NCBI GenBank assembly: GCA_020852965.1
Contig: JADYZV010000045.1
Coordinates: forward strand, 1-43,794
Direction of reading: 5' to 3'
Length of the DNA stretch: 43,794 bases
From: Pirellulaceae bacterium
GTDB lineage: Bacteria > Planctomycetota > Planctomycetia > Pirellulales > Pirellulaceae
The position numbers and the translations under genes were made by a program. This document shows, in pieces, positions 350-41,530 of this stretch; position 1 is the first letter of the stretch; each line of letters opens with the position of its first letter. The notes under the pieces are model-generated. The model was given only the letters and a program-made list of their open reading frames with translations. It ran no database searches and was not told the origin of the DNA.

Positions 350-2434
350 ATGCGCATTGGAATACTGACTGACATACACGAAGCGGTTGCGGCGGCCGCT
401 GCGGCAATTGACCTGATGCGTGAGCAGAACGTAGACGAAATCATTTGCTTGGGCGATTTCTGCGAAATGGGGACTCGTCTGGAGGAAACATGTGAACTGT
501 TGTTGCGTGAGCGGGTTCAATGCGTGTGGGGCAATCATGATTTTGGATTGTGCGAAGAGGCACGACTGGGAGCAGTCGAAAGATATCCGCCGGTTGTGGC
601 TGAGTTTGCGAAGACGGCAGTGGCAAGGATTCGAATCGGCGAGCTGTTGTTTACGCACGTCGAACCGTGGCTCGATCCGAACGAGATTACCGATCTGTGG
701 TATTTCGATGGCGTGCCTGATACAGCGGAAAAGCGCGCCAGGATCTTTGCTGACCGAGGACGGGCTGACCAAGGAGGGGAGAGGCAAGATTGGCGCATTG
801 CGTTCGCGGGTCACTTTCACACTTGGTTAGCCGCCAAGGAACACGAGTCCCATAGTTGGGATGGAACAACACATCTCGATTTATCGCAGGGTCGCCATTT
901 CGTCGTCATCGACGCTTGCATGGCCGGACACTGCGCAGTCTTCGACACTGATTCTCAATTGTTGTCACCGCTACGAATTCCAGGAGTCGAAGTGGACTGC
1001 ATGGAAGATACGCTTCAAGGGCCGGTTTTTTCTGCCGCCGCTAAACCGACACCTTTGACCAGCGACCAGTCGTATGAAGCTGAGCCGTTTGCGACGCTGG
1101 CTGACGCCATTCGGCACGGCTCGTACCGAGAATCGCTGGATGCACTGCCAGACCGGCTTAACCATTATCAAATCATCGAGCAGCTTGGACAGGGGGGCAG
1201 TTCAGACGTTTGGTTGGCTGAACACGTCTATTTGAAACAACAAGTGGCGATAAAAATACTGCGGCAGCGTGCGGCGACTGGGTCGGCCGAGTATGCAGAA
1301 CGCTTTTTACGCGAAGCGCAGGCACTCGCGATTATGCGCGGTCCCGGCGTACGAATTGTCCAAGACGCGGCAGTTCACGATAACATTCCCTATGTCGTAA
1401 CGGAGTTACTGGTGGGAAACGACCTTTCCGTTCATGTGAAGAATTATGGTGCATTGACGATCAACCAGACGATGGATCTGTTGGAACAAATGGGGGAAGT
1501 GCTCATTCGACAGGAGGAACACGGAATCCTACATCGCGACATCAAACCGAATAATATTTGGGTGCGCGAGGATGGCAGCTATTGCCTGTTCGACTATGGA
1601 CTTGTTGGCTTCGATGATAGCCTGCAAAAAGTTTCACTTGGAGGGGATCTGGATACCCGAACTGGTGCGGTCATGGGAACGCCAGTCTACATGGCACCCG
1701 AGCAAATCAGAGGAGCCCAAGCCGACCATCGCACGGACCTGTTTGGACTGGGAATGACAGCCTATCAGTGTTTGACGGGGAAGAGTCCGCGTACCTTTGA
1801 AAATTTGCGATCGGGTTTCCTCGAGAAAGCAGCGATTGTTCCCATCCCATCCGCTCGTGAAGATCGCAGCGATATCACTCCAGAGTTCGAACGCATCCTG
1901 CGATCGCTTACGGCGCTTGATCCAGATGAACGCTACGCAAGCGCACAAGATTTTGTACAAGATCTGGAAGCCTACCGATACGGACGCCGGCGTCCCTACG
2001 GAGCCACCAATGGTTCAGCTTTCGTGGCGATGCCGTTTAAGCCTTCATTCAATGGCATGTACGAATTTCTGCAGGACGTGTGCGGCGAGGCTCGTTTGGC
2101 GGCACGCAAGGTGGACCGCGTGACACAGATGCACAATATCTGGGGACAGATCGAAAGCGAAATTCGCTCCGCGACGGTGGTTATCGCCGTGTTTACACGC
2201 GAGGGCATGTCGCGTTGGCCCAATGCAAATGTACTCACTGAAGCCGCGCATGCTCGTGCGGTGGGACGCCCACTGATCGTCCTCACTACGGATCGTGCCG
2301 AAAAACTGCCGTTCGACTGGCGACATCTGCCGATCATCCACTACCGCAACACAACCAAGGGATTAGCAGCACTTCGCGAAGAATTGCTCCCTCGTTTGCG
2401 CCAGGAATTACGAGATCGGGCGAACCATGCGTGA
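350..2434 (+). CDS. Metallophosphoesterase / Ser-Thr protein kinase / TIR- or NDT-like fusion protein
   Basis: This 694-residue protein has three domains. Residues 1-210 form a calcineurin-like metallophosphoesterase: TDIH (7-10), LGDF (34-37), GNHD (61-64), H103 and GHFH (154-157). Residues 273-545 form a Hanks-type kinase: glycine loop LGQGGSSDV (279-287), VAIK lysine 302, HRDIKPNN (395-402), DYG instead of DFG (415-417) and APE (449-451). Residues 556-690 begin AFVAMPF and include 'IRSATVVIAVF', 'NANVLTEAAHARAVGRP' with E631, and 'LPFDWRHLPIIHY'. That pattern fits Rossmannoid domains related to nucleoside 2-deoxyribosyltransferases and TIR-like NAD/nucleotide-acting effectors. No membrane segment is visible, so it is probably cytoplasmic. 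A purine-rich GGAG lies at 333-336. It overlaps the next gene by 8 bases, implying coupled translation. Domains 1 and 2 are secure; the third is a fold-level inference. The role could be a phospho-regulated nucleotide or NAD effector. Confidence 0.85.
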   Translation: MRIGILTDIHEAVAAAAAAIDLMREQNVDEIICLGDFCEMGTRLEETCELLLRERVQCVWGNHDFGLCEEARLGAVERYPPVVAEFAKTAVARIRIGELLFTHVEPWLDPNEITDLWYFDGVPDTAEKRARIFADRGRADQGGERQDWRIAFAGHFHTWLAAKEHESHSWDGTTHLDLSQGRHFVVIDACMAGHCAVFDTDSQLLSPLRIPGVEVDCMEDTLQGPVFSAAAKPTPLTSDQSYEAEPFATLADAIRHGSYRESLDALPDRLNHYQIIEQLGQGGSSDVWLAEHVYLKQQVAIKILRQRAATGSAEYAERFLREAQALAIMRGPGVRIVQDAAVHDNIPYVVTELLVGNDLSVHVKNYGALTINQTMDLLEQMGEVLIRQEEHGILHRDIKPNNIWVREDGSYCLFDYGLVGFDDSLQKVSLGGDLDTRTGAVMGTPVYMAPEQIRGAQADHRTDLFGLGMTAYQCLTGKSPRTFENLRSGFLEKAAIVPIPSAREDRSDITPEFERILRSLTALDPDERYASAQDFVQDLEAYRYGRRRPYGATNGSAFVAMPFKPSFNGMYEFLQDVCGEARLAARKVDRVTQMHNIWGQIESEIRSATVVIAVFTREGMSRWPNANVLTEAAHARAVGRPLIVLTTDRAEKLPFDWRHLPIIHYRNTTKGLAALREELLPRLRQELRDRANHA

Positions 2435-3383
2435 AATTGTTCAATGTTATCACTGCTTAGTGCGTGTGGTTCCGAACAAGGATCAAACATGTCCTTCCTG
2501 CTTGGGTAGGATTGAAGCACTCGATACGTCAGTACCCTATTCACCGAATATCGAGAGGCTTCGTTTAGAAGCCAAAAAACGCACTGCCTTGGGAAAGTCT
2601 GAGCGATGGAAGGCTCGCGGTCTGTTTGTTGCAGCCTGGATTCCTATAGTGGGATTGTGGAATTTCGGCTTTCCAAAATATGCATTGGCGTTCTTCCTTG
2701 CGAACGCTTCTCGCAATCGGTATGACGTTAGCCGTCGAATTATGGCTCCGAACGGTTTTGTATTGCTCGCGAAAGACCCGCGTCCTCCGGTCGTATTTCT
2801 ACGGAGCTTTCGCGATGACGGTGCGTACGACCAGAATCCGGTACTCGAGAATTTTTCGAAGCTCACTCCGTTTTATGCGATTACACCGAGAACAACGCAG
2901 GAAGAGCGAGTGGCTCTGGCAACATCCTGCGTCGGTCCTGTCGTCGCTATAGGGAGACCCCGCGAACGACTACCCGAAATGGGAGCAGCTCGAATGTACG
3001 TTCCCGAGTCTCATTGGCAGAGTACAGTTGAGGATCTGTTGAAACGTGCGCGGTTGGTAATCGTTCGAGTCGGCCCTTCTCAGGGAGTCGCATGGGAGAC
3101 TGAAACCGCAGTCCGATTAGTGCCGCCAGAGCGGATCGTTTTCTACTTGGAGGCCGAGAGCGACTTGGCGGAGTTTGTGGAAGGTAAATTGCCTATACCT
3201 ATTCCTAGGGCGTTCAAGATCAAGCGTTTTGTGTACTTCGACAACAACTGGGATCCTCAAAGCGCATCGCGAATCCAGAAGGTACTAAAAAGCAAGCGGA
3301 TTTACCGGATTAGAGTGCCAAAGGACCTGATCGTAGTCTATTGCGTCTGCGCGTTATTGCTCGCCTGGATTTTGTTTTGGTGA
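2427..3383 (+). CDS. Zinc-ribbon membrane protein with FLRSFRDD-type domain (possible TIR-like partner)
   Basis: This 318-residue protein starts inside the end of the kinase fusion gene (8-base overlap), so the two are almost certainly co-expressed. Cysteines 7, 10, 22 and 25 (CYHC...CPSC) form a zinc ribbon. Residues 64-92 are hydrophobic and probably one membrane segment; residues 300-318 are a second hydrophobic helix ending in WILFW. Between them is a soluble domain: VVFLRSFRDDG (122-132), GPVVAIGRPRE (170-180), LPEMGAARMYVPESHW (182-197), ARLVIVRVGPSQGVAWE (208-224) and ERIVFYLE (235-242). I recognise this as a recurring domain of membrane-linked bacterial hypothetical proteins, with a Rossmann-like alternation resembling TIR/SLOG-like folds, but cannot name it. 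Likely role: membrane sensor or effector partner of the upstream fusion. The gene is certain, the function inferred. Confidence 0.8.
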   Translation: MREIVQCYHCLVRVVPNKDQTCPSCLGRIEALDTSVPYSPNIERLRLEAKKRTALGKSERWKARGLFVAAWIPIVGLWNFGFPKYALAFFLANASRNRYDVSRRIMAPNGFVLLAKDPRPPVVFLRSFRDDGAYDQNPVLENFSKLTPFYAITPRTTQEERVALATSCVGPVVAIGRPRERLPEMGAARMYVPESHWQSTVEDLLKRARLVIVRVGPSQGVAWETETAVRLVPPERIVFYLEAESDLAEFVEGKLPIPIPRAFKIKRFVYFDNNWDPQSASRIQKVLKSKRIYRIRVPKDLIVVYCVCALLLAWILFW

Positions 3384-4465: not shown

Positions 4466-5809
4466 ATGAGTGAATCGATTTTAAACGAATTCCGCCAAGC
4501 TCGGTGCAGGGTCGACTCGCTGACTGCCGAAGCGTTTTGGCATTTGAAGGGGCTGGGGGTTGACTCAAAATTGTTTAGCGAGCTGTTGCAAGTAGAGCAT
4601 AGTCTACGTTTAGAGCAATTCTCGAGCACGGGGGACATGGATGCGACGGTAACACGGTCGACCGTGGGGAACGCTAACAACGTTCGACTCGCCGTGGGAC
4701 CATCGCTGCCGGAGCGATTTGGTCGCTATGTGGTGAAGGGAGCCATCTCTCAGGGGGCCTTTGGAAGCGTCTATCAAGCCGAAGATCCGACGCTCGGGCG
4801 CGAGGTAGCGATCAAGTCCCCCAGAGACGATCGGGCACTGGACGAAGCGGCGAGGGCTGAGTTCGAACGCGAGGCGCGCCTGATCTGTCGCTTGGAACAT
4901 CCACACATCTTACCGGTCTACGATTTTGGTTTTTCCGACAACGGACGGCCCTACCTGGTATGCAAATTGGTGATGGCCCGATCGCTGGCCGAGCGCATCG
5001 AGTCGCGAGGTCTGAATTTCCATGAGACGACTCGAGTTGTAGCGCAGATGGCACGAGCGCTTCATCACTCGCACCAGCATGGGGTCGTACATCGCGATGT
5101 CAAACCCGCCAACATCTTGCTGGAGGAAAGTGGCCATGCTTGGCTGGCCGATTTCGGTTTGGGACTCGAATCTCCCAAGACGGATCTATCCCAGGATCGC
5201 TCAGGGACTCCACGCTATTGGAGTCCAGAACAGGCCGAAGCGAACTCGCATTTGGTGGACGGTCGCAGCGACATCTTTTCGCTGGGTGTCATCTTGTACG
5301 AATCGTTAACGGGCGTGCATCCGTTCGATGGCACGTCTATAGCCGCCCTCCTGAAGCGTTTGTTGGAAGCCGACGTGCGACCACCACGACAGCTCAACGA
5401 TCGCGTACCACGAAAGTTGGAAGAAGCTTGTATGCGCGCTTTGCGCCGCAACCCACTGGAACGCTACTCCACTGCAGCCGATTTCGCCGAGGACTTAGAG
5501 GAAGCGGCGACCTACCAGCCGCAGCCAATTGACACATCGAAGGTAGAGCTTTCGCCTGCGTTGGAAAGCTTGTTGGAGCGATTATCTGAAAACACGCACG
5601 AGATCTGGTCGCAATGCCGCATTGCGGAGGGCTGGATCGTCGGTAGCACTCGCGATGATAAGAAAAAGACTCATCCCGATTTGGTGCCCTACGAGCAACT
5701 TTCCGAAGGCGAAAAGGACTACGACCGCGCCGTCGTGCGTGCTGTGTTCAAGGCTGCCATCGCGCTGGGGAGCAAAATCACTCCACCTCCTAACAAACAA
5801 ATCGATTAG
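4466..5809 (+). CDS. Ser/Thr protein kinase with C-terminal RyR domain
   Basis: This 447-residue protein has a soluble Hanks-type kinase at about 88-345: SQGAFGSV (95-102), VAIK with lysine 117, HRDVKPAN (209-216), DFG (229-231), SPE (253-255) and DGRSDIFSLGVILYE. Residues 372-436 (ENTHEIWSQCRIAEGW, TRDDKKKTHPDLVPYEQL, EKDYDRAVVRAVFKAAIALG) match the RyR domain (Pfam RyR, PF02026), a ryanodine-receptor repeat also found in bacteria and phages, often in signalling or conflict proteins as I recall. Residues 1-80 are a short region typical of planctomycete kinases. There is no transmembrane helix, unlike many PknB-type kinases. The RyR part may bind a small ligand or protein and control the kinase; that is inference. 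It stands alone, with tandem hairpins in its leader. Confidence 0.9.
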   Translation: MSESILNEFRQARCRVDSLTAEAFWHLKGLGVDSKLFSELLQVEHSLRLEQFSSTGDMDATVTRSTVGNANNVRLAVGPSLPERFGRYVVKGAISQGAFGSVYQAEDPTLGREVAIKSPRDDRALDEAARAEFEREARLICRLEHPHILPVYDFGFSDNGRPYLVCKLVMARSLAERIESRGLNFHETTRVVAQMARALHHSHQHGVVHRDVKPANILLEESGHAWLADFGLGLESPKTDLSQDRSGTPRYWSPEQAEANSHLVDGRSDIFSLGVILYESLTGVHPFDGTSIAALLKRLLEADVRPPRQLNDRVPRKLEEACMRALRRNPLERYSTAADFAEDLEEAATYQPQPIDTSKVELSPALESLLERLSENTHEIWSQCRIAEGWIVGSTRDDKKKTHPDLVPYEQLSEGEKDYDRAVVRAVFKAAIALGSKITPPPNKQID

Positions 5810-5940: not shown

Positions 5941-6056
5941 GTCAGGATGTCGTCGTGGAGGGCAGGCAGAATCATGGTTGCCAGAATGATCTCACTTATA
6001 CAGTGAGAAGTGTTCAGAGCTCACTTAACTCCCGTGGGAAAGTCGCACGCAACACG

Positions 6057-6242
6057 ATGCACTCTATTACGATTAAGACCGAGGATGCCCGCACCGCGAA
6101 ATGTGATGTCTTTGTATTGAAGTACGCTCAGGCGTTTTTCGGTGCGGACTATGAATTAGCTGATGCTTTGGGGATGACGGATGAGAGGCTCGATCTGCCG
6201 ACCGGTAGCCATTTGTTCGTGACTGGTTCAAGCCAGGGCTGA
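6057..6242 (+). pseudogene. Truncated 5' fragment of a gene (DVFVLKYAQAFFGAD motif)
   Basis: The ATG at 6057 opens a 61-codon frame ending at TGA 6240-6242, running 15 bases into the 3' end of the convergent hydrolase gene. The translation begins MHSITIKTEDARTAKCDVFV and continues LKYAQAFFGADYELADALG. This resembles the N-terminal strand-helix unit of larger bacterial proteins with a 'DVLVLKYAQ.FYGAD' motif, which I associate loosely with CHAT- or macro-like conflict proteins. A 61-residue product lacks the rest of any such domain, so I read this as the surviving start of a gene cut by recombination. It could instead be a small real protein. The family assignment is weak; truncation is the simplest reading. 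Confidence 0.45.
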
Positions 6243-7250
6243 TTGCCATGCTGGTGGCCAGGAGGTGCGGGGAAACAATCGGCGGACTTCGCCGAACTGC
6301 TTGGACCAATCCTCACTGGTGTAGCGATCGGACAGATGAAACAATACCAGCTCGCCAACCTCCGCACTCACAGCGATCTGCGCGACTTCATCCGAACAGA
6401 GGTGAAAGTTCTTTACCGCCAAGTCTAAATCCTGGTTGGCGTAGCTATTTTCGCAGACGAGCACATCCACGTGTTTGATGAACGCGACCAGTTCTTCCAT
6501 CTCGACATCGTTGGGACGAAAATCGGTTAGATAGGCAAAGCTTGCTCCTGGCGTGCTCTTGAGCAATTGTCCACGCAACTCCGCGACGTTGAACGTCCGC
6601 TCACCAATAACGATGGTTTCGCTGCTGGGGGTGTCGTCGATGGTCGTAACTTGTTTGAGCCACGGGCCGGGCTTGAGCCCAAGTTCCGCGAGCTTTGACG
6701 TCTCCACATTCCAGCGATCTGCCTGGCGCACCACGTAGCCTGCACTGATGCAGCCCGACCCGTGGTCGAGCTCAATGGCTGAAACGGTTAGTTCGGGCCA
6801 GGCGTAGACAACTCGGTCGATCATCGGCTCGGACGTTTCCTGCGTGGGCACGCGGAATTGATCTTTGGTCGCGAACTCACAGCGTTCGAGGCGGTTTCCC
6901 CCGAATTCCGTCACAGCAACTTTGCCTGCCGCGTCGTCGACCAAGTTCCAGGTGTAGGCTTGCATCCGATGTTGGACGACGCGTCGGGTATCGCGTGGCC
7001 CGAACATGCGCAATGGAGACTCGCTGCGGTTATAATTCAAGCGAAACATGTAGTCGAAGCCGCTCACATGGTCCATGTGAAAGTGCGAGAAGAAGACCCC
7101 GTCGAGCGACATTATGTCGGCGATGGCAACACTATCCAGGCAGCCATAGCCACAGTCGAACAGCAGCTTATGAACCGCCTTCCCCGAATCCACCGATAGG
7201 AGCACCGCGTTGTCACGGCCTGGCTCTCCCAGAATTTGAAAGTTGATCAT
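6228..7250 (-). CDS. Metallo-beta-lactamase-fold hydrolase, RNase Z-like
   Basis: The start is placed at the ATG at 7250 (MINFQILGEPGRDNAVLLSV), because sequence upstream in this frame has no coding character; the product is 340 residues. The motif FSHFHMDHVSG (54-64) is the HxHxDH metal site of the MBL fold. FDCGYG (31-36) precedes it as in RNase Z/ElaC-type enzymes. The downstream FAYLTDFRP, VCENSY and LVLFHLSDRY segments fit the remaining metal ligands (D, then H). The substrate cannot be read; cyclic-nucleotide phosphodiesterase, RNase Z-like nuclease or other phosphodiester hydrolase are all possible. It lies 107 bases after the tyrosine phosphatase gene on the same strand and is plausibly the last gene of that operon. 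Confidence 0.82.
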   Translation of the reverse strand: MINFQILGEPGRDNAVLLSVDSGKAVHKLLFDCGYGCLDSVAIADIMSLDGVFFSHFHMDHVSGFDYMFRLNYNRSESPLRMFGPRDTRRVVQHRMQAYTWNLVDDAAGKVAVTEFGGNRLERCEFATKDQFRVPTQETSEPMIDRVVYAWPELTVSAIELDHGSGCISAGYVVRQADRWNVETSKLAELGLKPGPWLKQVTTIDDTPSSETIVIGERTFNVAELRGQLLKSTPGASFAYLTDFRPNDVEMEELVAFIKHVDVLVCENSYANQDLDLAVKNFHLCSDEVAQIAVSAEVGELVLFHLSDRYTSEDWSKQFGEVRRLFPRTSWPPAWQSALA

Positions 7251-7357
7251 GTGTGCGTCACTTTGCGAAATGTTTTCCGGACATGGAACTCGCTTCAGTG
7301 CGCAAGCGACCGAAGATCGATAACTAGACAGTGTACCGTCGATTTGGTTCACTGACC

Positions 7358-8016
7358 TCAGCGATTTGAACAGCCGAATTGCTCTCCCCACTGCATGCGC
7401 TCCAAGCCAACGCCCGCTGCCGTTTCTTGACGCAACTGGGACAACGCGTTCTTCGCCTCTTCGCTCGTCAAGCCAACATGCCGCAGCAAAGCGTATGAAA
7501 TTAGTCCGGTGCGGTGAATCCCCGCCGAGCAATGAAGGTAAAGCCGAGCTTGATGGTTCAATGCATTTCGAATTTCGTCGAACATTTGAACGATCTCTGC
7601 CCGTCGTTCGTCAGGTGGAGGGTCGCCAGAGACTAGCGGTAGCCAAAACCATTCCAGACCGGCTTGTCGCACATGATTGCCGACGGTTTCCGCACCTTCA
7701 GATTCCGACAATAGCGTCATGACATGCGTGGTGCCAATACTGTGCATTGACTTGATCGTCTTGATTTTGGGACGATGACCGATTGCCAAATGACCTTCGA
7801 GAACAGGAACCCAGGCGATGGATGACTCTTTGGCAACGGCTTGAACTTTCCGAAGCTTGCCCATCAATGGCCCAAGCACCGCTCGCGAGGACTCGTTGCG
7901 AGCCATTTCTGTTTGGATTTCAACGAGCAATTCGGTTATCGACTGGCCGTACGAGTCGCAATCAGTACGCTCAAGTGCAGCTTCGGCTTTTGCTAAAAGT
8001 TATCAATCGGCTTCAT
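7358..8016 (-). pseudogene. Dual-specificity/tyrosine phosphatase, apparent -1 frameshift near the N-terminus
   Basis: The long frame carries the protein tyrosine phosphatase loop HCSAGIHRTG (catalytic Cys and Arg of CX5R) and an upstream SGDPPPDE that can supply the general-acid Asp. This fits a 190-220-residue dual-specificity phosphatase. The natural start is the ATG at 8016-8014, which overlaps the preceding gene's TGA as ATGA. That frame (MKPIDNF) hits TAG at 7995-7993. The phosphatase frame is open with coding-like sequence (AKAEAALERTDC...) from just after it. One extra T in the TTTT run (AAAA at 7995-7998 on the plus strand) would fuse them. The gene is therefore frameshifted by mutation or sequencing error, or restarts at a TTG near 7930. 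Family call is strong, intactness doubtful. Confidence 0.78.
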
Positions 8017-18197: not shown

Positions 18198-19130
18198 ATG
18201 AGCGCCTCGACCGTTGCTGAAGCAGAAAATAAGGCATCTCCCGCTACGGCGTCGGATGTTGTCATTGAAACACGGAACTTGGGTAAAATCTATCGCGATT
18301 TTTGGGGCCGCAAGAAAGTCGCGGCACTCAAGGCGCTCGACATAGAAGTGCTCAAAGGGGAGATTTTCGGCCTGCTCGGCCCCAATGGCTCGGGGAAATC
18401 GACCACGATCAAGCTCATTCAAGGTTTGTTGTTCCCGACTTCGGGGCGTGCCTTCGTGTTTGGAAAGGATGCTCGGGACGTCACCAAAAACGAGCGAATC
18501 GGCTACTTGCCCGAAGAATCTTATCTTTACAAGTTTCTCAATGCTGAAGAGACACTCGATTTTTATGGTCGCCTGTTCGATATGCCTGCCGAGTTGCGGC
18601 GAGAGCGGAGCGAGCAACTGATCAAGATGGTCGGCCTGCAACACGCGCGGCGGCGACAGTTGAAGGAATACTCCAAAGGGATGACTCGCCGGATCGGTTT
18701 GGCCCAAGCGTTGATCAATGAACCAGATCTGTTGATTCTGGACGAGCCGACCACCGGGATGGACCCCATTGGTAGCCGAGAAATGAAGGATTTGATCGTG
18801 CGACTGCGGGACGAGGGGAAAACAATATTGATGTGTTCCCACCAGTTGGCTGACGTGCAGGACGTATGCGATCGAGTGGCCATTTTGCACCAAGGCGAAT
18901 TGCGTGAGCTGGGACGTGTGGACAGTCTACTCAAGGTTCGCGATGTGACCGAGGTTCACACCACGCAGCTTTCTGACGCAACCAAGGCGAAGATCGCCGA
19001 CTTGATCCGTGCCGAAGGGGGCAAGGTGATCTCGATGGACAATCCGACCACCACGATGGAAGAGCTGTTTTTGGACATTGTGCAAGACGATCGGCCTGGC
19101 CAGCGCCCTAGCAGCAAGCCGGCGACCTAG
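18198..19130 (+). CDS. ABC transporter ATP-binding protein
   Basis: A 310-residue ATPase subunit: Walker [10 protein letters not shown] (61-69), signature [15 protein letters not shown] (158-172; SKGMT replaces LSGGQ, common in ABC-2 exporters), Walker [14 protein letters not shown] (178-190) and CSHQLADVQ switch His. The last ~70 residues form the extra C-terminal region seen in multidrug/polysaccharide-type exporters. AAGGA lies near 18180 as ribosome-binding site. Followed 62 bases later by a matching permease and then a third, coupled gene, so it is the energy subunit of one exporter. The substrate is unknown. Confidence 0.93.
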
Positions 19131-19192
19131 AGCTGGCGAGCATTTTATCTCCTTTCTGTTCCTTTGAATTATCTTGAAATTGTCGCCGTCAA

Positions 19193-21004
19193 ATGCGAAT
19201 TGAACCTGAACAAATGTGGAGCTACTTCGAGTGGCTCTTTTACCATTACGGGCTGTTGCAAGGAGTGCTGGTGGCGGTCGCCCTGGCCGCACTTGGCTTT
19301 ATAGCCTGCTATCTGATTTCCATGGCCCGCTATGGGCCTGGCGAAGGCTTCTACCACGTGACTCGGGTGATCTACGAATTGCTCGCCCGCGACTTACCTA
19401 GGACTTCCATGCGGCGCATCTATGCGCTCGGTCGCTTGGCCTTTCAGGAAGCGATTCGGCGGCGCGTGCTGGTCGTGATGGCGGTATTTATCGTCGGCGT
19501 ATTGTTTGCTGGGTGGTTCTTGGACCCGAGCTCCGACAACGTGGCGCGACTGTATATCAGCTTTGTGATGACAGGCACCAGCTACCTGGTGTTGTTGTTG
19601 GGACTGTTCCTGAGTTGCTTTAGCTTGCCTGCGGACATCAAGAGCAAGACCATTCAAACGATCACGACCAAGCCGGTGCGCTGTACGGAAATTGTGATCG
19701 GTCGCATTCTTGGCTTTACCGCCGTGGGGACCTTGCTGCTAGCTGGTATGGCTTTTTTGAGTTACCAGTTCGTGAGTCGTGGAATCAACCATGAGCACGA
19801 AGTCAAGGACATGGCCAGCGACGGTATGAGCGGTACAACCAGCTACGATGCCAAGCACCAGCACCAATTCGAGCTGATCGAGAATGAAGATGGCAGCATG
19901 GGTGGTACTACCGATGAACAGAAAGGACACCGCCACGAAGTCGTAGTGCGAGATGTCGATGGTCAGCGAGTCGTGACGCTTGGCAAACCCGAGGGTTTAT
20001 TGGGAGCCCGCATTCCGGTTTTCGGCTCGTTGCAAATAACTGACCGCAGCGGCAATGTTGGCAGTGGATTGAACGTCGGCTACGAATCGGAGTATCAGAA
20101 ATACATCGAGGGCAATTCGTTGATGTCCGCAATCTGGACTTTCGACGGCGTCTATCCAGGTCGCTTTGGTGGCGGGGATTCGCTGCCACTTGAGCTGAGC
20201 CTGAAGGCCTTCCGGACTTACAAAGGGGATATTGTTACTGGCGTGCAAGGGGAGATCATTCTCAAGAATCCCGATGGGCGTGTGGAAAGCGAGCGGCGTG
20301 GTTTTGTGGTGAAGGAATTCGCCGTCGATCACATCGAAATTCCGCGTAAAATATCGGGCTCACGCGATGGGCAACCGGTCGAAGTGGACATCTTTGATGA
20401 CTTGGTCTCCGAAGATGGGCAGTTGCAAGTGGTGGTGCGTTGCAAGGACAACGGTCAGTACTTCGGCATGGCTCAACCCGATCTTTACCTCCGTGCGGGG
20501 GACAGCACTTTTGGATGGAATATGTTCAAAGGCTTTCTCGGTATTTGGATGCAGATGGTATTAGTAATATGCTTGGGAGTCATGTTCAGCACCTTCCTGA
20601 GTGGGCCGGTAGCCATGGTGGCGACGATGACCTGCCTGATGCTCGGCTTCTTCGGTAATCTGGCGCTGGATGTGGCGACGGGCGATCTGCCCGGGGGTGG
20701 ACCGATCGAGTCGTTGATTCGCATGCCGCTTCAAACGGGAGCGATGGTCGACTTGGACCTTGGCAATGAAGTTCTCGAGACGGTGATTAAGGGGGCCGAC
20801 CAAGGTATCATGTATACGTTGGTGTCGGTGTTCCAAGCCATTCCACGGTTTGGGCAGTTCAACACGGCTGACTTCGTGGCCTATGGTTTTAATATCTCCG
20901 GTGGGCTGGTTGCGCGGCACTTGACGATGACTTTGGCCTACTTCTTGTTGACAAGTTTGATTGCATACTTCTTTCTCAAAACTCGGGAGCTGGCGGCCGC
21001 ATGA
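19193..21004 (+). CDS. ABC transporter permease with large extracytoplasmic insert
   Basis: A 603-residue membrane protein. Hydrophobic segments occur near residues 20-43, 91-110, 117-145, 170-192, then a cluster around 440-490 and a last one near 575-598. Between about 195 and 435 lies a long soluble insert, probably periplasmic. Its start is rich in His (NHEHEVKDM, KHQHQFELIE, KGHRHEVVVRD), followed by 'SGLNVGYESEYQKYIEG' and beta-rich sequence. The order ATPase-permease and the fold suggest the ABC-2 / ABC-type exporter group. The stop codon overlaps the next start (ATGA). A His-rich loop in an exporter, followed by a His-rich lipoprotein downstream, hints at metal handling, but no substrate can be proven. 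No strong Shine-Dalgarno is visible. Confidence 0.85.
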   Translation: MRIEPEQMWSYFEWLFYHYGLLQGVLVAVALAALGFIACYLISMARYGPGEGFYHVTRVIYELLARDLPRTSMRRIYALGRLAFQEAIRRRVLVVMAVFIVGVLFAGWFLDPSSDNVARLYISFVMTGTSYLVLLLGLFLSCFSLPADIKSKTIQTITTKPVRCTEIVIGRILGFTAVGTLLLAGMAFLSYQFVSRGINHEHEVKDMASDGMSGTTSYDAKHQHQFELIENEDGSMGGTTDEQKGHRHEVVVRDVDGQRVVTLGKPEGLLGARIPVFGSLQITDRSGNVGSGLNVGYESEYQKYIEGNSLMSAIWTFDGVYPGRFGGGDSLPLELSLKAFRTYKGDIVTGVQGEIILKNPDGRVESERRGFVVKEFAVDHIEIPRKISGSRDGQPVEVDIFDDLVSEDGQLQVVVRCKDNGQYFGMAQPDLYLRAGDSTFGWNMFKGFLGIWMQMVLVICLGVMFSTFLSGPVAMVATMTCLMLGFFGNLALDVATGDLPGGGPIESLIRMPLQTGAMVDLDLGNEVLETVIKGADQGIMYTLVSVFQAIPRFGQFNTADFVAYGFNISGGLVARHLTMTLAYFLLTSLIAYFFLKTRELAAA

Positions 21005-22926
21005 ACGTAGTAGTCTTACGTCGTCGACTGTTTTATATTTGTGCCATGGTGCTGTTGTTGGTGCCGCTCTATTTCTTGGGAAATCCGTCGGTGCGAAACC
21101 CCGATGGATCGGTCAAGCAGTCGGGAGGGACGTTGGCGCAGATTCGAACCAATTATGATTTGGGCCAAGGTGATTTGGGCGAGATCGATCCGGCTAGCGA
21201 ATCGATGCGTTTGGCCACGCTCGGGCTGCGCGGGGTGGCTGCCACCATCCTGTGGCAGAAGGCGGAGTACTACAAAAAAGAACAATTCTGGGATCGATTG
21301 TCGGCGACGCTCAATCAAATCGCTGTACTGCAACCCCACTTCGTTGAAGTCTGGGAGTTTCAGTCGCACAATTTGTCCTACAATGTGTCGGTCGAGTTTG
21401 ATGATTACCGGCAGCGTTACCAGTGGGTCAAACGCGGCATCGAGTATCTGATCAAGGGGAGCAAGTTCAACAAGCATCGCACCGAAATGCCCTTTGAACT
21501 GGGGAACTTCTTCGGCAGCAAAATGGGGGTGGCCGACGAGAAGTTGCAGTTTCGCTCGCTGTATCGCAATGACAATAACTTCCATGAAGAGGTGCTGGAT
21601 AGGACCGGTATGGACCTGACCCAACCCGAGGGGCTAGGCGCCGATCGCAAACCGGACAATTGGCTGAGCGGTCGCTTGTGGTTTGAACGGGCGTACGCCA
21701 TGGTCGACGCAGGCTCCGCGCCGGCCCGCAGCGCGTTGATGTTCTACGTAAAAGGCCCTCAATGGTTGATGAAAAGCGCCGAAGCGATGCAGTCCGAAGG
21801 AACTCTCGACGAACCGGCACGCTATGCTTGGCGACGGGCCGGGCGAGATTGGGACGCATTTGGCAAGCGCAATATCGTCACCACCTTTGGCGATACGATC
21901 TACTTGAAGGAGACGGCAACGGCGAACGAGAATTACGATAAATTGAAGCGGCAGTTCGAAGAGTTTGCTGGTGAAACCTATCAACGGTTGCTAGCCGAGC
22001 GAACCGCCCAATTGACACCGGAAGAGATCGTCGCCTGGGAAAAGCCAGAACTGGATCGTACCTTGGATGAGATGTTCATGGCCGCCAAGGTTGAGACTTT
22101 GTTCACCGTTCCGCCCGGTGAAGTCGCACGCGCGCTTCCTGAAGAGAAACGCATCGAGGCCTTTGAATTGGCTCAGCGATTATCGGCTGCTAATGACAAG
22201 ATCCAACACATCGAAATCTATACCAACCAGGTCAACTATGCCTATTGGGAAACGCGCTGTGAAGCGGAGCAGGAAGATGCTGCCATTCTAGCGCGGACCA
22301 GTATGTACGAAGCGAATCAGATGCTCGATCGAGGCGAATTGGATGCCGCGATTGCCAAGTACGATGAGGCTTGGAAGGCCTGGGCTGACCTGTTCAACAA
22401 ATTCCCCGCGATGATGATCGACGACGCGGCTGATGAAGTGATGGCGTCTATCGAGCGCTACCTTCGTCTGCTCGACCAACCCGACTTGCCTGAAGATTTC
22501 GCGCTGAAAGATTTCGTCAAGTTCACAGATATGTATCAATCCAACCAAGCAGATCCGGCCGTTATGCAAGTTATGGCGGTATGGCCGGACCGCTATCCGG
22601 GACGCAACTTCTTGACCGAGCTCTTCCGCAAACTGGACGAGCAGGCGAAATTGGACGAGCAAGCGGATTCCGCGTCGGATGAAAATGCCCCAGAGGGAAC
22701 CGACCAGACGGAGGAACCTACACCGGCCGATTCGAAAGAGGCCGCCGCCGAACAACCTCCCCAACCATCTGAAGAGGGTACGGAAGCGGACGCCAAGCCG
22801 AATGCGCCGACAGCGGAAGCGACACCTGCGGCGGACGCCAAGCCGACTAGCGACGAAAGTACGACCGACGGTGGGGTTTCTATAGCGCCTCCAGACCAAG
22901 GAAACGCGCCGAGCCCCAAAAATTGA
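21001..22926 (+). CDS. Membrane-anchored protein coupled to the ABC transporter
   Basis: A 641-residue protein whose start overlaps the permease stop by 4 bases. A single N-terminal membrane anchor (residues ~10-27, FYICAMVLLLVPLYFLG) is followed by a long, mostly helical, charged region with aromatic-rich stretches (ATILWQKAEYYKKEQFWDRL; LQPHFVEVWEFQSHNLSYN) that resembles tetratricopeptide-like helical repeats. Residues ~545-641 are low complexity, rich in Ala, Glu, Pro, Thr and Asp. I do not recognise a family beyond planctomycete-type proteins found after ABC exporter genes. Probable role: periplasmic accessory or regulator of the exporter. A 9-bp stem-loop follows the stop codon, so this is likely the operon's last gene. 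Confidence 0.82.
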   Translation: MNVVVLRRRLFYICAMVLLLVPLYFLGNPSVRNPDGSVKQSGGTLAQIRTNYDLGQGDLGEIDPASESMRLATLGLRGVAATILWQKAEYYKKEQFWDRLSATLNQIAVLQPHFVEVWEFQSHNLSYNVSVEFDDYRQRYQWVKRGIEYLIKGSKFNKHRTEMPFELGNFFGSKMGVADEKLQFRSLYRNDNNFHEEVLDRTGMDLTQPEGLGADRKPDNWLSGRLWFERAYAMVDAGSAPARSALMFYVKGPQWLMKSAEAMQSEGTLDEPARYAWRRAGRDWDAFGKRNIVTTFGDTIYLKETATANENYDKLKRQFEEFAGETYQRLLAERTAQLTPEEIVAWEKPELDRTLDEMFMAAKVETLFTVPPGEVARALPEEKRIEAFELAQRLSAANDKIQHIEIYTNQVNYAYWETRCEAEQEDAAILARTSMYEANQMLDRGELDAAIAKYDEAWKAWADLFNKFPAMMIDDAADEVMASIERYLRLLDQPDLPEDFALKDFVKFTDMYQSNQADPAVMQVMAVWPDRYPGRNFLTELFRKLDEQAKLDEQADSASDENAPEGTDQTEEPTPADSKEAAAEQPPQPSEEGTEADAKPNAPTAEATPAADAKPTSDESTTDGGVSIAPPDQGNAPSPKN

Positions 22927-38101: not shown

Positions 38102-41100
38102 TTAAAACGGGATGTCCATATCATGGATGCCATCCAATGTGGCGGCACGCGGAATGGCCACATAGCCGATCGATTGCCATAGTGCACGCTCGTGCTCTAA
38201 CTGCATGTTGGCAAACAGTCCTTCGTGTATTTTGCCTTGTGAGAATAGGCTATCGACATCGGAACTGCTGGTGATTCGTTGTGCGGCTAAATCGATAACG
38301 CGCCGCGGGTCGGGAAGGTTAGCAGCCACAGGCTCGAGCCAGTCGAGTGGCAATTGGACAGCCGCCAGGCGCTGCGGAAATGCTAGGATTCGAAAGCGTT
38401 GTCGACGTTTCGATCCAGTCGCCGCAGGATCGTAGAAATGGACCACGCCCCCTTCACCTTCCAACCAACTTTCGACTCCCAATCCCTGGAATTGTAGCGA
38501 GAGTCCAAGTGGATTGGGCCATGCAGATTTCAGCAGCAGATCCTTGTCCAGGCGATAGGCGTCCACGACTGGCTCGCCCGATTCGCCAGTGATTTCGGCT
38601 GGAGCAAACAATCGAAAACTTGGCTGCTGAACCACCTGAGACTTGTCGGCTCCGTCTCGTGACAAACTCTGTTTACGAAATTCGGTGCTCGACTCATCGT
38701 GTCGGGCATCGTACTCATGCAGCACGTGAGCTTCACAGGTCCAGTGGTTTTGCTCTGCCAGTTGTCGATAAGCTTTCAGTAGTGTTTCGAGCTGCATCTC
38801 GCCACGGCCGACAACTACCAGCGACATGACATTGCTTCCCGAAACGCGACGACGGACGACATCCTCAGTCGCCTGGCGGAGCAGAGTCAATTCACTCTTA
38901 CTCAAATTTTGCCAATTTTGCCAATCGAGTTTTGCCCCCTTTTGCCAGGCGGTCATTAGCGACAACTGCGATCGGCCGATGCGCTCCGTAGTCTCTAACA
39001 ATTGGTCGCGAATCTTGCGCGAGATTTCGATGAAAGCTTGCCCCTGTTGGACCTGCAAGCGAATAGAGGATGTACGACTTGGCCCCTGAGCTCGTTTTAG
39101 CCGTTTCTCCAAACTTTCGTTTTGTCGTTGCGTCCTTTCGAGTTCGTTCTCTAAATCGCGCACTGGTCCACTAACACGAGCCGTGCGGGCCATGCGACCG
39201 AGCTGCTGCCAAGTGTCGATCACGTCGATCTCCAATTGCCGATGTGATTTGGTTTTGGTCGCTAGCTTTTTCGCTTGGACAACGATATCCCCCTGTTGCT
39301 CGGCCACCACAAACGACCACGTGTCATCGCCGTGGATAGAGCTCAGCGCATCGGCCAAAGGTACCGCCACATTCCGCTCGATCGCGCGGCGCAAAGGACG
39401 CGCGCCATACTTGGGTTGATAGCCCAATTGACACAGGCGATCGACGGCCGAGTCATCGAATGCTACATCGCAATCGCTATACTTGAGTCCTGGTCGCTGT
39501 CGCAGTTTTTCCAATTCGCGGTAGGCAATCTGTTTGACAACTTCCATGGAGAGCGGTCGAAAGGGAACGATGCGATCCAGCCGCCCCAGGAACTCTGGAC
39601 GCACAAATCGCCGCACTTCGCGTTCGAAGTGCTCGCGCCAGGTCGCTAGCTCTCCTTCGCCGAAACCGACGCCACCGCCGCGAAACGTCTCTGCTCCCAG
39701 ATTGCTAGTCATGATGACCACCGCATTGCGAAAGTCGGCCAAGCGTCCCTGGGAGTCGGTCAACCTTCCTTCCCCAAGCAGTTGCAACAACAGGTCAAAC
39801 ACATTCGGATCGGCCTTTTCAAATTCGTCCAACAAAACCACCGAGAAAGGTTGTTCGCGAATGGGCGATGTCAGCGTACCATCCCCTTCTCCAGCTTTGC
39901 CAATCAGTTTTACAGCCGACCATGGCGAGGCATACTCACTCATGTCGATGCGAATCATACGGCTGGTGTCGCTGTAGAGCAGTTGCGCAATGGCCTTTGC
40001 CATCTCCGTCTTGCCAACTCCTGTTGGACCGATGAACATCAGGGATGCCAGCGGGCGACCGGGACGTACCAAGCGGGCTTTGAGCGTGGCAAGCAAATCG
40101 ACGACCAGCTCGACAGGTTCGGGCTGCCCCACCACTTGCCCAGACAGCTGCTCGCCGATGGCGGTTAAGTCGAGCGGAACGGAATCGTCGACCAAGAACC
40201 TAGGTAGTCCGGTCTGCTGGGCGAAGGCTCGCGCTACTTGGTCGGCCTCGACCAACGTCCCCGGCGATTCGCGATCTGAAATAGTGCGCATCAATTGAAG
40301 CGCCGTCGCGGGTAGTGCCGAGTAGGTCGCAAAACGGGAATGAAGCCGCACCAATTCTTCGATCGCTTGATCCGAGTAGTCGACTTGTTGGAGCGATTTT
40401 CCATGTTGGGCGGCCGACCGTAGAATGGCTCGTATCTTGGCCTGCGCCAGCTCTTTGAATTCCATGCGAGTGAAGGCGCGCAACAACATCGGATCTTCGC
40501 GTTCGATAATGGACAATTGCTCTGGGGTACACTCGGCGATCGCCAGCAGCTTGCCCCGCGCGATCGATTGACGCACCATCGAGGCGACGCCCGGCTGGCC
40601 ATCGATCTTGCCCGCTTCCAATAATTCAAACAACGACCCCAGATGCAAGATCGATTTCGTTGCATGCGCCTGCCGAATCAGTTTAGAACACCGCTGCTGC
40701 CACATGCCCAATCCAGACATGCCCGAAACGATGCGCGCCCCGGATGTGGACCAGTAGCGCCGGTCACCGAGCCCCAGTGAAGAGGATATTTGGACCAGAC
40801 GGTACAGTAGCGATGTCTTTCCGACACCGGCTGGCCCAACCAGCAAGACGCTTTGCGGAGCATCACCAATCAAGTGATCGGCCAGTTCGGTCACCTTCTC
40901 ATCGAGGCCATAGATCTCCGCCAGCTTAGCCTTGCATAGATCGCTGGCTGCCGCGCGTAGAGCAGATGTTTTCTTGCGTTCCTCGCGCTTGCGATCGTCC
41001 CGTTCGGGCTCACCTCCCAGTGGCATAGCCAAGGCGACGTGGTGCATTTCGTAGCTACGTCGTGTGAAGCGTTGACTGAGCGCAAGCAAACCCTGGTTCT

Positions 41101-41530
41101 CTGCTAGTCGCAGTAAGGCCACCCGCGCCTGCTTGGCAATTTCGGCATCATCCAAATCGGGCGGCTTACCGAACAGCGTGCAATTCACGGCCGGGACGCG
41201 GACTAGATTGTGTCCATTGGCAAGCTGCCAGCGAAAGCAATCCAGCTCGATTTGCAACGGCACTTCCCAGCTCGTATCGTCCCCCTGAGGTGGCAAGTCG
41301 ACCGAGCACTTCCAACTCTGGCACTCCGCAGGTAGCCCACCCGCAAATAGATCCGTGGGCAATATTTCGGGCAGTCGTTTGGTTAGAAGCTTCGACAGTT
41401 GCTTGAGCACTTCGCTTGGCGATGTACCTACCGCCTGCATTCGCCACGGTCCCAGCGGACGGCCGCGAACGAATTGATCCGAAAAGTACTCGACCTGCAC
41501 GGGAACATGGATAGTAATCGATTCGCTCAT
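38102..41530 (-). CDS. ClpB/ClpA-like double AAA+ protein with C-terminal release-factor PCRF-like region
   Basis: An 1142-residue protein. Instead of the Clp_N domain, residues 1-170 form a different N-terminal module. AAA1 has Walker A GPAGVGKTS (232-240), but its Walker B position reads ILHLGSLFEL where ClpB has 'ILFIDELHTL': the Asp and Glu are missing, so AAA1 may bind but not hydrolyse ATP. AAA2 is intact: GPTGVGKTE (501-509), VVLLDEFEKAD (564-574), TSNLGAE, PEFLGRLD and GARPLRRAIE. Residues ~770-860 are coiled-coil-like; ~895-1050 (VMSLVVVGRGEMQLETLLKA, then 'NPLGLSLQFQGLGVESWL', EGEGGVVHFY) follow the layout of the PCRF domain of peptide-chain release factors but lack a GGQ domain. 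A ribosome- or translation-linked disaggregase is an attractive but unproven role. Single gene, start MSESITIHVP. Confidence 0.87.
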   Translation of the reverse strand: MSESITIHVPVQVEYFSDQFVRGRPLGPWRMQAVGTSPSEVLKQLSKLLTKRLPEILPTDLFAGGLPAECQSWKCSVDLPPQGDDTSWEVPLQIELDCFRWQLANGHNLVRVPAVNCTLFGKPPDLDDAEIAKQARVALLRLAENQGLLALSQRFTRRSYEMHHVALAMPLGGEPERDDRKREERKKTSALRAAASDLCKAKLAEIYGLDEKVTELADHLIGDAPQSVLLVGPAGVGKTSLLYRLVQISSSLGLGDRRYWSTSGARIVSGMSGLGMWQQRCSKLIRQAHATKSILHLGSLFELLEAGKIDGQPGVASMVRQSIARGKLLAIAECTPEQLSIIEREDPMLLRAFTRMEFKELAQAKIRAILRSAAQHGKSLQQVDYSDQAIEELVRLHSRFATYSALPATALQLMRTISDRESPGTLVEADQVARAFAQQTGLPRFLVDDSVPLDLTAIGEQLSGQVVGQPEPVELVVDLLATLKARLVRPGRPLASLMFIGPTGVGKTEMAKAIAQLLYSDTSRMIRIDMSEYASPWSAVKLIGKAGEGDGTLTSPIREQPFSVVLLDEFEKADPNVFDLLLQLLGEGRLTDSQGRLADFRNAVVIMTSNLGAETFRGGGVGFGEGELATWREHFEREVRRFVRPEFLGRLDRIVPFRPLSMEVVKQIAYRELEKLRQRPGLKYSDCDVAFDDSAVDRLCQLGYQPKYGARPLRRAIERNVAVPLADALSSIHGDDTWSFVVAEQQGDIVVQAKKLATKTKSHRQLEIDVIDTWQQLGRMARTARVSGPVRDLENELERTQRQNESLEKRLKRAQGPSRTSSIRLQVQQGQAFIEISRKIRDQLLETTERIGRSQLSLMTAWQKGAKLDWQNWQNLSKSELTLLRQATEDVVRRRVSGSNVMSLVVVGRGEMQLETLLKAYRQLAEQNHWTCEAHVLHEYDARHDESSTEFRKQSLSRDGADKSQVVQQPSFRLFAPAEITGESGEPVVDAYRLDKDLLLKSAWPNPLGLSLQFQGLGVESWLEGEGGVVHFYDPAATGSKRRQRFRILAFPQRLAAVQLPLDWLEPVAANLPDPRRVIDLAAQRITSSSDVDSLFSQGKIHEGLFANMQLEHERALWQSIGYVAIPRAATLDGIHDMDIPF

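Follow-up and report, generated by a model that had tools for sequence, protein, structure and literature searches.

A metallophosphoesterase-kinase-DRHyd/NDT fusion overlapping a gene for a membrane-anchored LRxF protein: a possible kinase-linked conflict unit in a planctomycete

Results

Locus layout and defence context

The window, a 43,794-nucleotide stretch of DNA from a Pirellulaceae bacterium, carries two overlapping genes near its start (Table 1), for which the ORF coordinates of the first-pass annotation were reproduced. Gene 1 had been described there as a fusion of a metallophosphoesterase (MPE), a Hanks-type kinase and a C-terminal Rossmannoid domain, and all three domain calls were upheld by Pfam, motifs and Foldseek. 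Its 694-codon open frame and Pfam matches above curated cut-offs identify it as a non-chance ORF. The proposed 8-base overlap with gene 2 is present (...CCATGCGTGAAATT...) and, as our sole basis for this point, supports translational coupling of the two genes.

Table 1. Features of the gene pair and of one adjoining gene, numbered from the first base of the window
Feature	Position	Strand	Evidence
Gene 1: metallophosphoesterase - Ser/Thr kinase - DRHyd/NDT fusion, 694 aa	350..2434	+	ORF list, Pfam
Metallophosphoesterase domain, residues 1-215	350..994	+	Pfam, motifs, alignment
Hanks-type kinase domain, residues 273-533	1166..1948	+	Pfam, motifs
C-terminal DRHyd/NDT-TIR-group domain, residues 547-694	1988..2431	+	motifs, AF2 model, Foldseek, profile search
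Overlap of gene 1 stop and gene 2 start, 8 bases	2427..2434	+	sequence
Gene 2: zinc ribbon + membrane helices + LRxF domain, 318 aa	2427..3383	+	ORF, motifs, structure model
Zinc ribbon CYHC...CPSC, residues 7-25	2445..2501	+	motif; sub-threshold DUF7129 match
Helical, weakly hydrophobic membrane segment(s), residues ~65-106	2619..2744	+	model, hydropathy
LRxF domain (working name), residues ~114-280	2766..3266	+	alignment, structure model
C-terminal transmembrane helix, residues 299-317	3321..3377	+	model, hydropathy
Adjoining kinase + RyR-domain gene (context, outside the claimed unit)	4466..5809	+	domain search

Regulators and metabolic enzymes surround the pair. The GC3 values of genes 1 and 2 (0.555 and 0.522) lie below those of all nine other window genes measured (0.576-0.705), which is compatible with import. 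Searches of 10 window proteins each recognised no complete known defence system. PADLOC models matched three of the ten proteins: the kinase-RyR gene matched kinase models, and partial matches were found at 18198-19127 (mads_3, mads_8) and 38105-41530 (PDC-M37B, DolB), both about 15 kb or more from the pair. Support for the suggested defence setting is indirect and comes from the conflict-type neighbours of the LRxF domain in other genomes, described below.

Domains of gene 1

The MPE domain is matched by Metallophos_2 over residues 1-161 (E 1e-13, above the curated cut-off) and keeps the full DxH..GD..GNHD..H..GHxH ligand set (D8-x-H10, GD36, GN62H63D, H103, GH155-x-H157), its metal-ligand residues being invariant across seven aligned sequences including that of the window. 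Its nearest relatives (31-47% identity), from seven genomes of the same family, are separate ORFs of 216-281 aa whose fetched flanks lack a kinase; nor was a kinase found near the MPE in 32 further distinct fetched loci, taken from 84 listed matches. Since the MPE relatives stand alone in the loci fetched, a conserved MPE-kinase operon was rejected.

The kinase domain (Pkinase, residues 273-533, E 4e-34, above the curated cut-off) retains all of its motifs, namely VAIK (K302), HRD at 395-397, D415YG in place of DFG, and APE. It strongly matches the PADLOC models of the PD-T4-6 and MADS6 anti-phage kinases, but the match is confined to the kinase domain rather than the whole protein, the second kinase of the window scores equally or better, and the MADS6 score of gene 1, at 115 bits, lies below the cut-off of 460.

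Residues 556-690 had been called a TIR/NDT-like Rossmannoid, and Foldseek places the domain inside that group. The AF2 model of residues 547-694 (pLDDT 91.9, pTM 0.87) has as its top PDB match the nucleoside 2-deoxyribosyltransferase 2a0k (E 2.2e-6) and aligns to 7o62 with TMt 0.69-0.72; the 54 matches at E<=1e-3 include TIR domains of SPARTA, SfSTING and SARM1. Profile searches reach the solved structures of Rcl/DNPH1 (down to 1.9e-5) and NDT 2a0k (0.017), and single-sequence PDB searches with this domain or that of gene 2 returned chance matches only. A TIR domain proper is not indicated by Pfam, where TIR_2 scores 19.7 bits against a curated cut-off of 28. By structure and profile searches, the C-terminus of gene 1 is thus predicted to be a member of the NDT/DNPH1-TIR group.

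The DRHyd/NDT motifs are FVAMPF, NANVLTE and PFDW. E631, in the catalytic-Glu column that is invariant in 36 aligned sequences, is the sixth residue of model helix 80-91, which follows strand 3; the remaining invariant positions, namely both Asn, Val, PFD and Tyr, are likewise kept. Beside these, the three positions with 90% or higher conservation (Tyr84, Gly87 and His90 in fragment numbering) are occupied by Thr, Ala and Arg in the window domain. In an FGE-fused subfamily, three of the four members also have the Arg; because of these changes, the activity of the domain may differ or be lost. Gene 1 has in common with effectors of the TIR-DRHyd-SLOG group, for example NDT-like retron effectors, the fold group and the catalytic-type Glu position, and differs from the NDT-like effectors by its fused kinase and metallophosphoesterase. 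For one retron, Retron-Eco1, the title of a paper mentions NAD+-hydrolysing filaments. PMC9503650 describes the DRHyd domains of conflict systems as acting as NADases or cyclases, and certain DRHyd/SLOG clades as non-catalytic sensors.

The gene 2 protein and the LRxF domain

Gene 2 had been described as a zinc-ribbon, membrane-anchored protein with a second Rossmann-like domain. The anchored zinc ribbon is borne out by the cysteine motifs CYHC (7-10) and CPSC (22-25) and by the C-terminal helix, the first membrane segment being weak by hydropathy. The Rossmann-like domain is modelled with good local confidence, but its fold matches are weak, with none at E<=1e-3 in Foldseek searches of the PDB. 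DNPH1 structures 8osc and 9i3q are matched at probability 0.99 with E 0.04-0.07 and TMt 0.50-0.55, and the lowest E-values belong to CmcI, an unrelated enzyme. Comparison with an NDT profile by hhalign gave probabilities of 10% and 1.3%, though both Glu residues align. The modelled likeness to DNPH1/NDT folds is weak. A PDB profile search returned mainly designed barrels and unrelated enzymes, which were set aside.

Across 60 sequences, the LRxF domain has the invariant residues L125, R126, F128, D131, P178, W197, W223 and E224 and no Pfam or NCBIfam model match. In 79 of 82 ORFs, the domain is preceded by a transmembrane segment. Its occurrence is patchy: the domain is found in 9 of 392 genomes of the phylum, the window's genome counted, and record titles name Actinomycetota genera, planctomycetes, Acidobacteria, Verrucomicrobia, Desulfobacterales, Alphaproteobacteria and others. 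The gene 2 protein search returned five Streptomyces/Embleya plasmid records and neither phage records nor viral contigs; the NDT domain search returned 13 plasmid records, 37 viral contigs and zero phage records. Among 14 other genomes of the genus, three contain an NDT-domain relative, and the loci fetched from these three lack a kinase.

Occurrence of the pair and of kinase-NDT fusions

Within the searches made, both the MPE-kinase-NDT triple fusion and the gene 1-gene 2 pair occur once, in the window. The first-pass annotation had proposed a candidate two-gene system, which was not supported as a conserved pair: no adjacent homologous pair was found in the other genomes searched. A gene 2 homologue was found in one of 97 other relatives searched, with no kinase, NDT or MPE over the surrounding 19.5 kb at the thresholds used. 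That annotation had named homologues in which the genes are never neighbours as a refutation, and for the exact pair this largely applies; it is softened by locus L086, where an LRxF-type gene stands in a tight row with an NDT gene.

Kinase and NDT domains are fused at three other loci of one related family (L177, L181 and L235) and lie in adjacent genes at L198. The three fusions have the kinase-to-NDT order of gene 1 and its insert before the N-x-N-V motif, but differ in that, by eye, their kinases seem to have lost the catalytic motifs, suggesting a scaffold role there, and in that the surrounding DNA examined (2 to 12 kb for the LRxF domain) holds neither MPE nor LRxF domain. Conversely, none of 80 LRxF loci has a kinase-NDT fusion. 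A kinase occurs in two of these 80 loci, once within 3 kb, and the idea that gene 2 is habitually paired with a kinase was rejected.

LRxF neighbourhoods in other genomes

In 29 of 80 loci, an 8xMP, SLATT, TPR-S, TIR, NDT, patatin or cyclase gene is found within 3 kb of the LRxF domain. Nine of these 29 supplied query sequences and 20 did not; the partner classes were chosen after inspection of the same loci (10 + 10 proteins picked by eye from ORF lists), and many loci come from Streptomyces and its kin and are hence non-independent. Partner-class matches were found in 0 of 64 short control loci (0.24 Mb), a smaller, single-phylum set in which three loci overlap others. The classes of SLATT/8xMP/TPR-S nucleotide-conflict neighbourhoods recur beside the domain in other genomes, and none of the 12 partner queries matches the window. 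SLATT is a predicted nucleotide-responsive pore former according to PMC7159879.

At L086, from a Planctomyces MAG, three genes form an operon in the order LRxF, patatin, NDT+TPR-S; one junction is a 4-nt overlap, the other a 2-nt gap. At L059, the LRxF gene has beside it an NDT gene and genes for two TIR proteins, one of which also carries a metallophosphoesterase. In 71 LRxF loci (1.0 Mb), four NDT genes were seen against about 0.06 expected, an indicative figure that uses 125 listed matches, an assumed mean genome of 5.3 Mb and mixed phyla. MPE was found in none of the 71 by phmmer, with the window's MPE as query, and a motif scan, at a sensitivity that missed the diverged TIR+MPE protein of L059 detected by Pfam.

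Discussion

The gene pair may be a signalling or phage-defence unit. Our leading reading, a tentative one that we hold to be somewhat more probably wrong than right, is a one-off, kinase-linked, membrane-tethered nucleotide-processing conflict unit drawn from a recurring kit, with activity and defence role both presumed. Gene 1 is a three-domain chain with no predicted transmembrane segment, whose kinase domain, intact in its motifs, would be activated by a signal. Phosphorylation of gene 1 itself and/or of the gene 2 protein would switch on the DRHyd/NDT domain, which would cleave the glycosidic bond of NAD+ or another nucleotide via Glu631. The gene 2 protein would tether the complex to the membrane, and its LRxF domain, in which Glu224 takes the corresponding position, may serve as a second nucleotide-processing or nucleotide-sensing module; the metallophosphoesterase would be the off-switch, trimming the product or undoing phosphorylation. 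The most likely purpose would be abortive-infection-type defence or stress arrest.

This conflict unit is favoured by the domains, motifs and fold described above, by the pairing of kinase and NDT elsewhere, fused or adjacent, by the transmembrane segment that nearly always precedes LRxF, by its conflict-type neighbours together with the L086 and L059 rows, and by patchy occurrence and low GC3. It is weakened by the single occurrence of pair and triple fusion, the lack of a recognised complete defence system among the window proteins searched, the Thr/Ala/Arg changes, the non-significant gene 2 fold match, the degenerate kinases of the related fusions, and the post hoc choice of partner classes among non-independent loci. 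The change of a third near-invariant residue, the His, shifted weight towards a serious if doubtful possibility, that gene 1 is a regulated kinase in which the DRHyd/NDT domain is a non-catalytic nucleotide sensor gating output, gene 2 is a membrane substrate and no nucleotide is destroyed. The three altered residues round Glu631, the intact kinase motifs and the sensor clades described in the text of PMC9503650 fit such a regulator; Glu631 itself and the remaining invariant residues are kept, however, and the same text describes conflict-system DRHyd domains as NADases or cyclases.

The pair could also be more mundane. PMC11032199 reports, for Planctomycetota and outgroups, 105 accessory domains in 307 kinase architectures, and gene 1 might be an ordinary planctomycete regulator born of kinase domain shuffling, with gene 2 the next operon gene and no joint function, as uniqueness within the searches and the nearby regulators and metabolic enzymes would allow. 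We consider this improbable in view of the 8-base overlap and of the conflict-type effectors near LRxF in 29 of 80 loci, one row including an NDT gene. The metallophosphoesterase alone might be a passenger without a role in the circuit, derived from a separate planctomycete gene that became joined to the front of a kinase-NDT gene. Its closest relatives do stand alone, without kinases in their flanks or in the 32 further loci, but every metal-ligand motif is intact, the frame is continuous and a TIR+metallophosphoesterase protein adjoins an LRxF-type gene at L059; we regard a passenger as unlikely.

In bacterial defence, signalling through kinases and immunity that destroys nucleotides are mostly treated as distinct strategies. 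With a kinase, a DRHyd domain and a phosphoesterase in one chain, it would become possible to test directly whether kinases control such effectors. More broadly, and on a view that we rate as rather unlikely, LRxF would form an uncatalogued branch of the TIR/DRHyd/SLOG group, tethered to the membrane and making or reading a nucleotide signal for 8xMP, SLATT and patatin effectors across many phyla; its partner in the window would be a DRHyd enzyme gated by phosphorylation, with the phosphoesterase off-switch built in. The side result may prove more important than the fusion: a membrane domain without Pfam or NCBIfam match in 60 sequences adjoins conflict effector classes in about one third of the loci examined.

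A phosphoesterase-kinase-DRHyd fusion

A single chain in this Pirellulaceae genome carries the signatures of a kinase and of a phosphoesterase, both intact, together with a DRHyd-fold domain in which the key Glu is retained; its gene overlaps one for a membrane protein. The first-pass annotation had called these two open reading frames from sequence alone, and both stand, with an 8-base overlap. All ligands of the metallophosphoesterase (MPE) are present in gene 1 (D8xH10, D36, N62H63, H103, H155xH157) and invariant across an alignment of seven sequences including the window's, and the kinase retains its VAIK (K302), HRD (395-397) and D415YG motifs.

The gene 1 C-terminus matches TIR_2 only below the Pfam cut-off. 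An AF2 model built from 36 aligned sequences (the window's, 31 from viral contigs and four from genomic loci) reached a pLDDT of 91.9 and a pTM of 0.87. Its 54 Foldseek matches in the PDB at E≤1e-3 are led by nucleoside 2-deoxyribosyltransferases (NDTs; 2a0k, E 2.2e-6), followed by the TIR domains of SPARTA, SfSTING and SARM1. The family's sequence profile matches Rcl/DNPH1 (1.9e-5) and NDT (0.017), while 19 of the 36 aligned members match PF05014 and five match CAP12 TIR (E≤0.01). The earlier NDT/TIR-like call made by eye was therefore right; in the terminology of the accessible text of PMC9503650, this is a DRHyd domain.

Glu631 falls in a column of invariant Glu, and the window has Thr, Ala and Arg where the family has Tyr, Gly and His, each at least 90% conserved among the 36 sequences. 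The latter three are missing, too, in a subfamily whose four members are all joined to FGE-sulfatase-like domains; three of the four share the Arg. This subfamily (loci L196, L198, L202 and L203 from other genomes; the Pfam test covers L198) carries N-x-N-V-V-H-E-A and PFDW motifs, and in L198 a kinase+SpoIIE gene lies immediately upstream of the fused gene.

Coordinates of the features discussed
Feature	Location	Strand	Remarks
Gene 1	window 350-2434		694 aa
Metallophos_2	gene 1 residues 1-161		Pfam, above cut-off
Pkinase	gene 1 residues 273-533		Pfam, above cut-off
Gene 2	window 2427-3383		318 aa
Second Ser/Thr kinase	window 4466-5809	+	RyR domain at the C-terminus (PF02026, E 5e-30); gene 2 lies 1.1 kb upstream
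Short ORF	window 5955-6242	+	By eye, like N-terminus of a same-genus protein (L014) with C-terminal NDT domain; may be a remnant or fragment
Metallo-beta-lactamase-fold gene overlapping dual-specificity-phosphatase-like gene	window 6228-7930	-	Former weakly matches anti-Pycsar Apyc1, below cut-off
Gene with partial PADLOC mads_3 and mads_8 matches, then two large genes	window 18198-22926	+	Large genes overlap by 4 bases; no Pfam match at E≤1e-5
Membrane LRxF-domain gene, patatin-like phospholipase, NDT+TPR-S gene	L086:6906-12147		Planctomyces sp. MAG; tight gene row
LRxF gene, TIR+metallophosphoesterase protein, second TIR protein, NDT gene, WD40 protein	L059:7551-16548		Terriglobia MAG; cluster

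The gene 2 protein and its LRxF domain

Gene 2 encodes a protein with a CxxC...CxxC ribbon, N-terminal helices of weak hydrophobicity, a compact domain of alpha/beta type and a transmembrane helix at the C-terminus. We refer to the compact domain as LRxF; its L-R-x-F, D, P, W and W-E do not vary across 60 sequences. None of the 60 matches Pfam or NCBIfam within the domain at E≤0.01, their sole match being the window's zinc ribbon, below cut-off, and the window protein found no match in PHROGs. The best-scoring relative comes from a Planctomyces sp. MAG; this, together with planctomycete-type gene families carried by relatives, points to a planctomycete host. By a hydropathy threshold on stop-to-stop ORFs, 79 of 82 carry a transmembrane segment N-terminal to the domain and 81 carry one anywhere.

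Foldseek with the domain model returned nothing at E≤1e-3. The lowest E belongs to CmcI, an unrelated enzyme (6e-3), after which come DNPH1 (probability 0.97-0.99, TMt 0.50-0.55), BcmB and NDT at E 0.02-0.07. The models of this domain and of the gene 1 C-terminal domain agree in the order of their elements, Glu224 being, as in gene 1, the sixth residue of the helix after a strand. Profile-profile comparison with the NDT domain aligned the same two Glu residues, yet at probabilities of 10% and 1.3%. The LRxF domain is probably a distant, as yet unproven, relative.

Distribution and genomic company

The annotation's candidate two-gene system finds no support as a conserved pair: the triple fusion and the gene pair are both unique within what was searched. 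Counting the window's own genome, the gene 2 protein occurs in 2 of 98 near genomes and, by single-sequence search, in 7 of 392 phylum genomes (9 with the LRxF profile); the NDT domain occurs in 11 and, by profile, 80, respectively. Fetched DNA at the ten other near-genome NDT loci lacks a kinase, as do the fetched loci of NDT relatives (ORFs of 316-395 aa) in 3 of 14 other genomes of the genus. Strong MPE relatives stand alone in seven same-family genomes, and no kinase lies near further ones at the 32 distinct loci fetched (of 84 rows). Kinase-NDT fusions number two among 29 loci fetched from 124 other phylum NDT-profile matches, and a third came from 14 loci in the four genomes of their family, a related one; all three (L177, L181, L235) have kinase motifs that look degenerate by eye, and the 2 to 12 kb examined around them holds neither MPE nor gene 2 domain.

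LRxF neighbourhoods were collected from 71 loci in one scan of named genomes and nine in related genomes; as L266 bears a gene identical to that of L121, 79 of these 80 are distinct. Within 3 kb lie DUF4328 (19 loci), 8xMP (14), TPR-S (5), SLATT (4) and TIR (4), and more rarely NDT (3), patatin (2), cyclase (2) and kinase (1). At least one of 8xMP, TPR-S, SLATT, TIR, NDT, patatin or cyclase accompanies 29 of the 80, nine of these 29 having supplied partner queries; the same queries found no match in 64 control loci (0.24 Mb), a smaller set from a single phylum. In L086 the patatin ATG overlaps the preceding stop by 4 nt and the NDT+TPR-S GTG lies 2 nt past the next stop; in L059 the second TIR protein has two matched stretches, and it, the TIR+metallophosphoesterase protein and the NDT gene lie close to the LRxF gene.

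In actinobacteria, a same-strand row of LRxF, DUF4328 and 8xMP recurs (L061, L075, L077, L085, L087, L091, L099) and is a candidate membrane system in its own right. SLATT effector-type genes also lie directly downstream of actinobacterial LRxF genes (L089, L114) or nearby (L098, L112).

Possible function

The kinase may gate the DRHyd domain, the gene 2 protein or both, with the DRHyd domain cutting NAD+ or a nucleotide and the phosphoesterase resetting the circuit. Because the residues round Glu631 are changed, a DRHyd domain that merely senses a nucleotide accounts for the protein nearly as well as one that cuts. In the literature searched, with most subscription papers outside its reach, we recognised no description of the MPE-kinase-NDT fusion or the gene 2 domain. 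Calcineurin, DRHyd, TIR and S/T kinase are among the effector domains that the accessible part of PMC8195603 gives for bacterial Death-like-domain conflict systems. Against a defence role, those neighbours in the window that Pfam could type encode regulators, cell-wall enzymes and metabolic enzymes, and PADLOC on ten window proteins returned kinase models or partial matches, the latter some 15 kb or more away. The company that the gene 2 domain keeps in other genomes, together with patchy occurrence, suggests that the pair may serve in defence.
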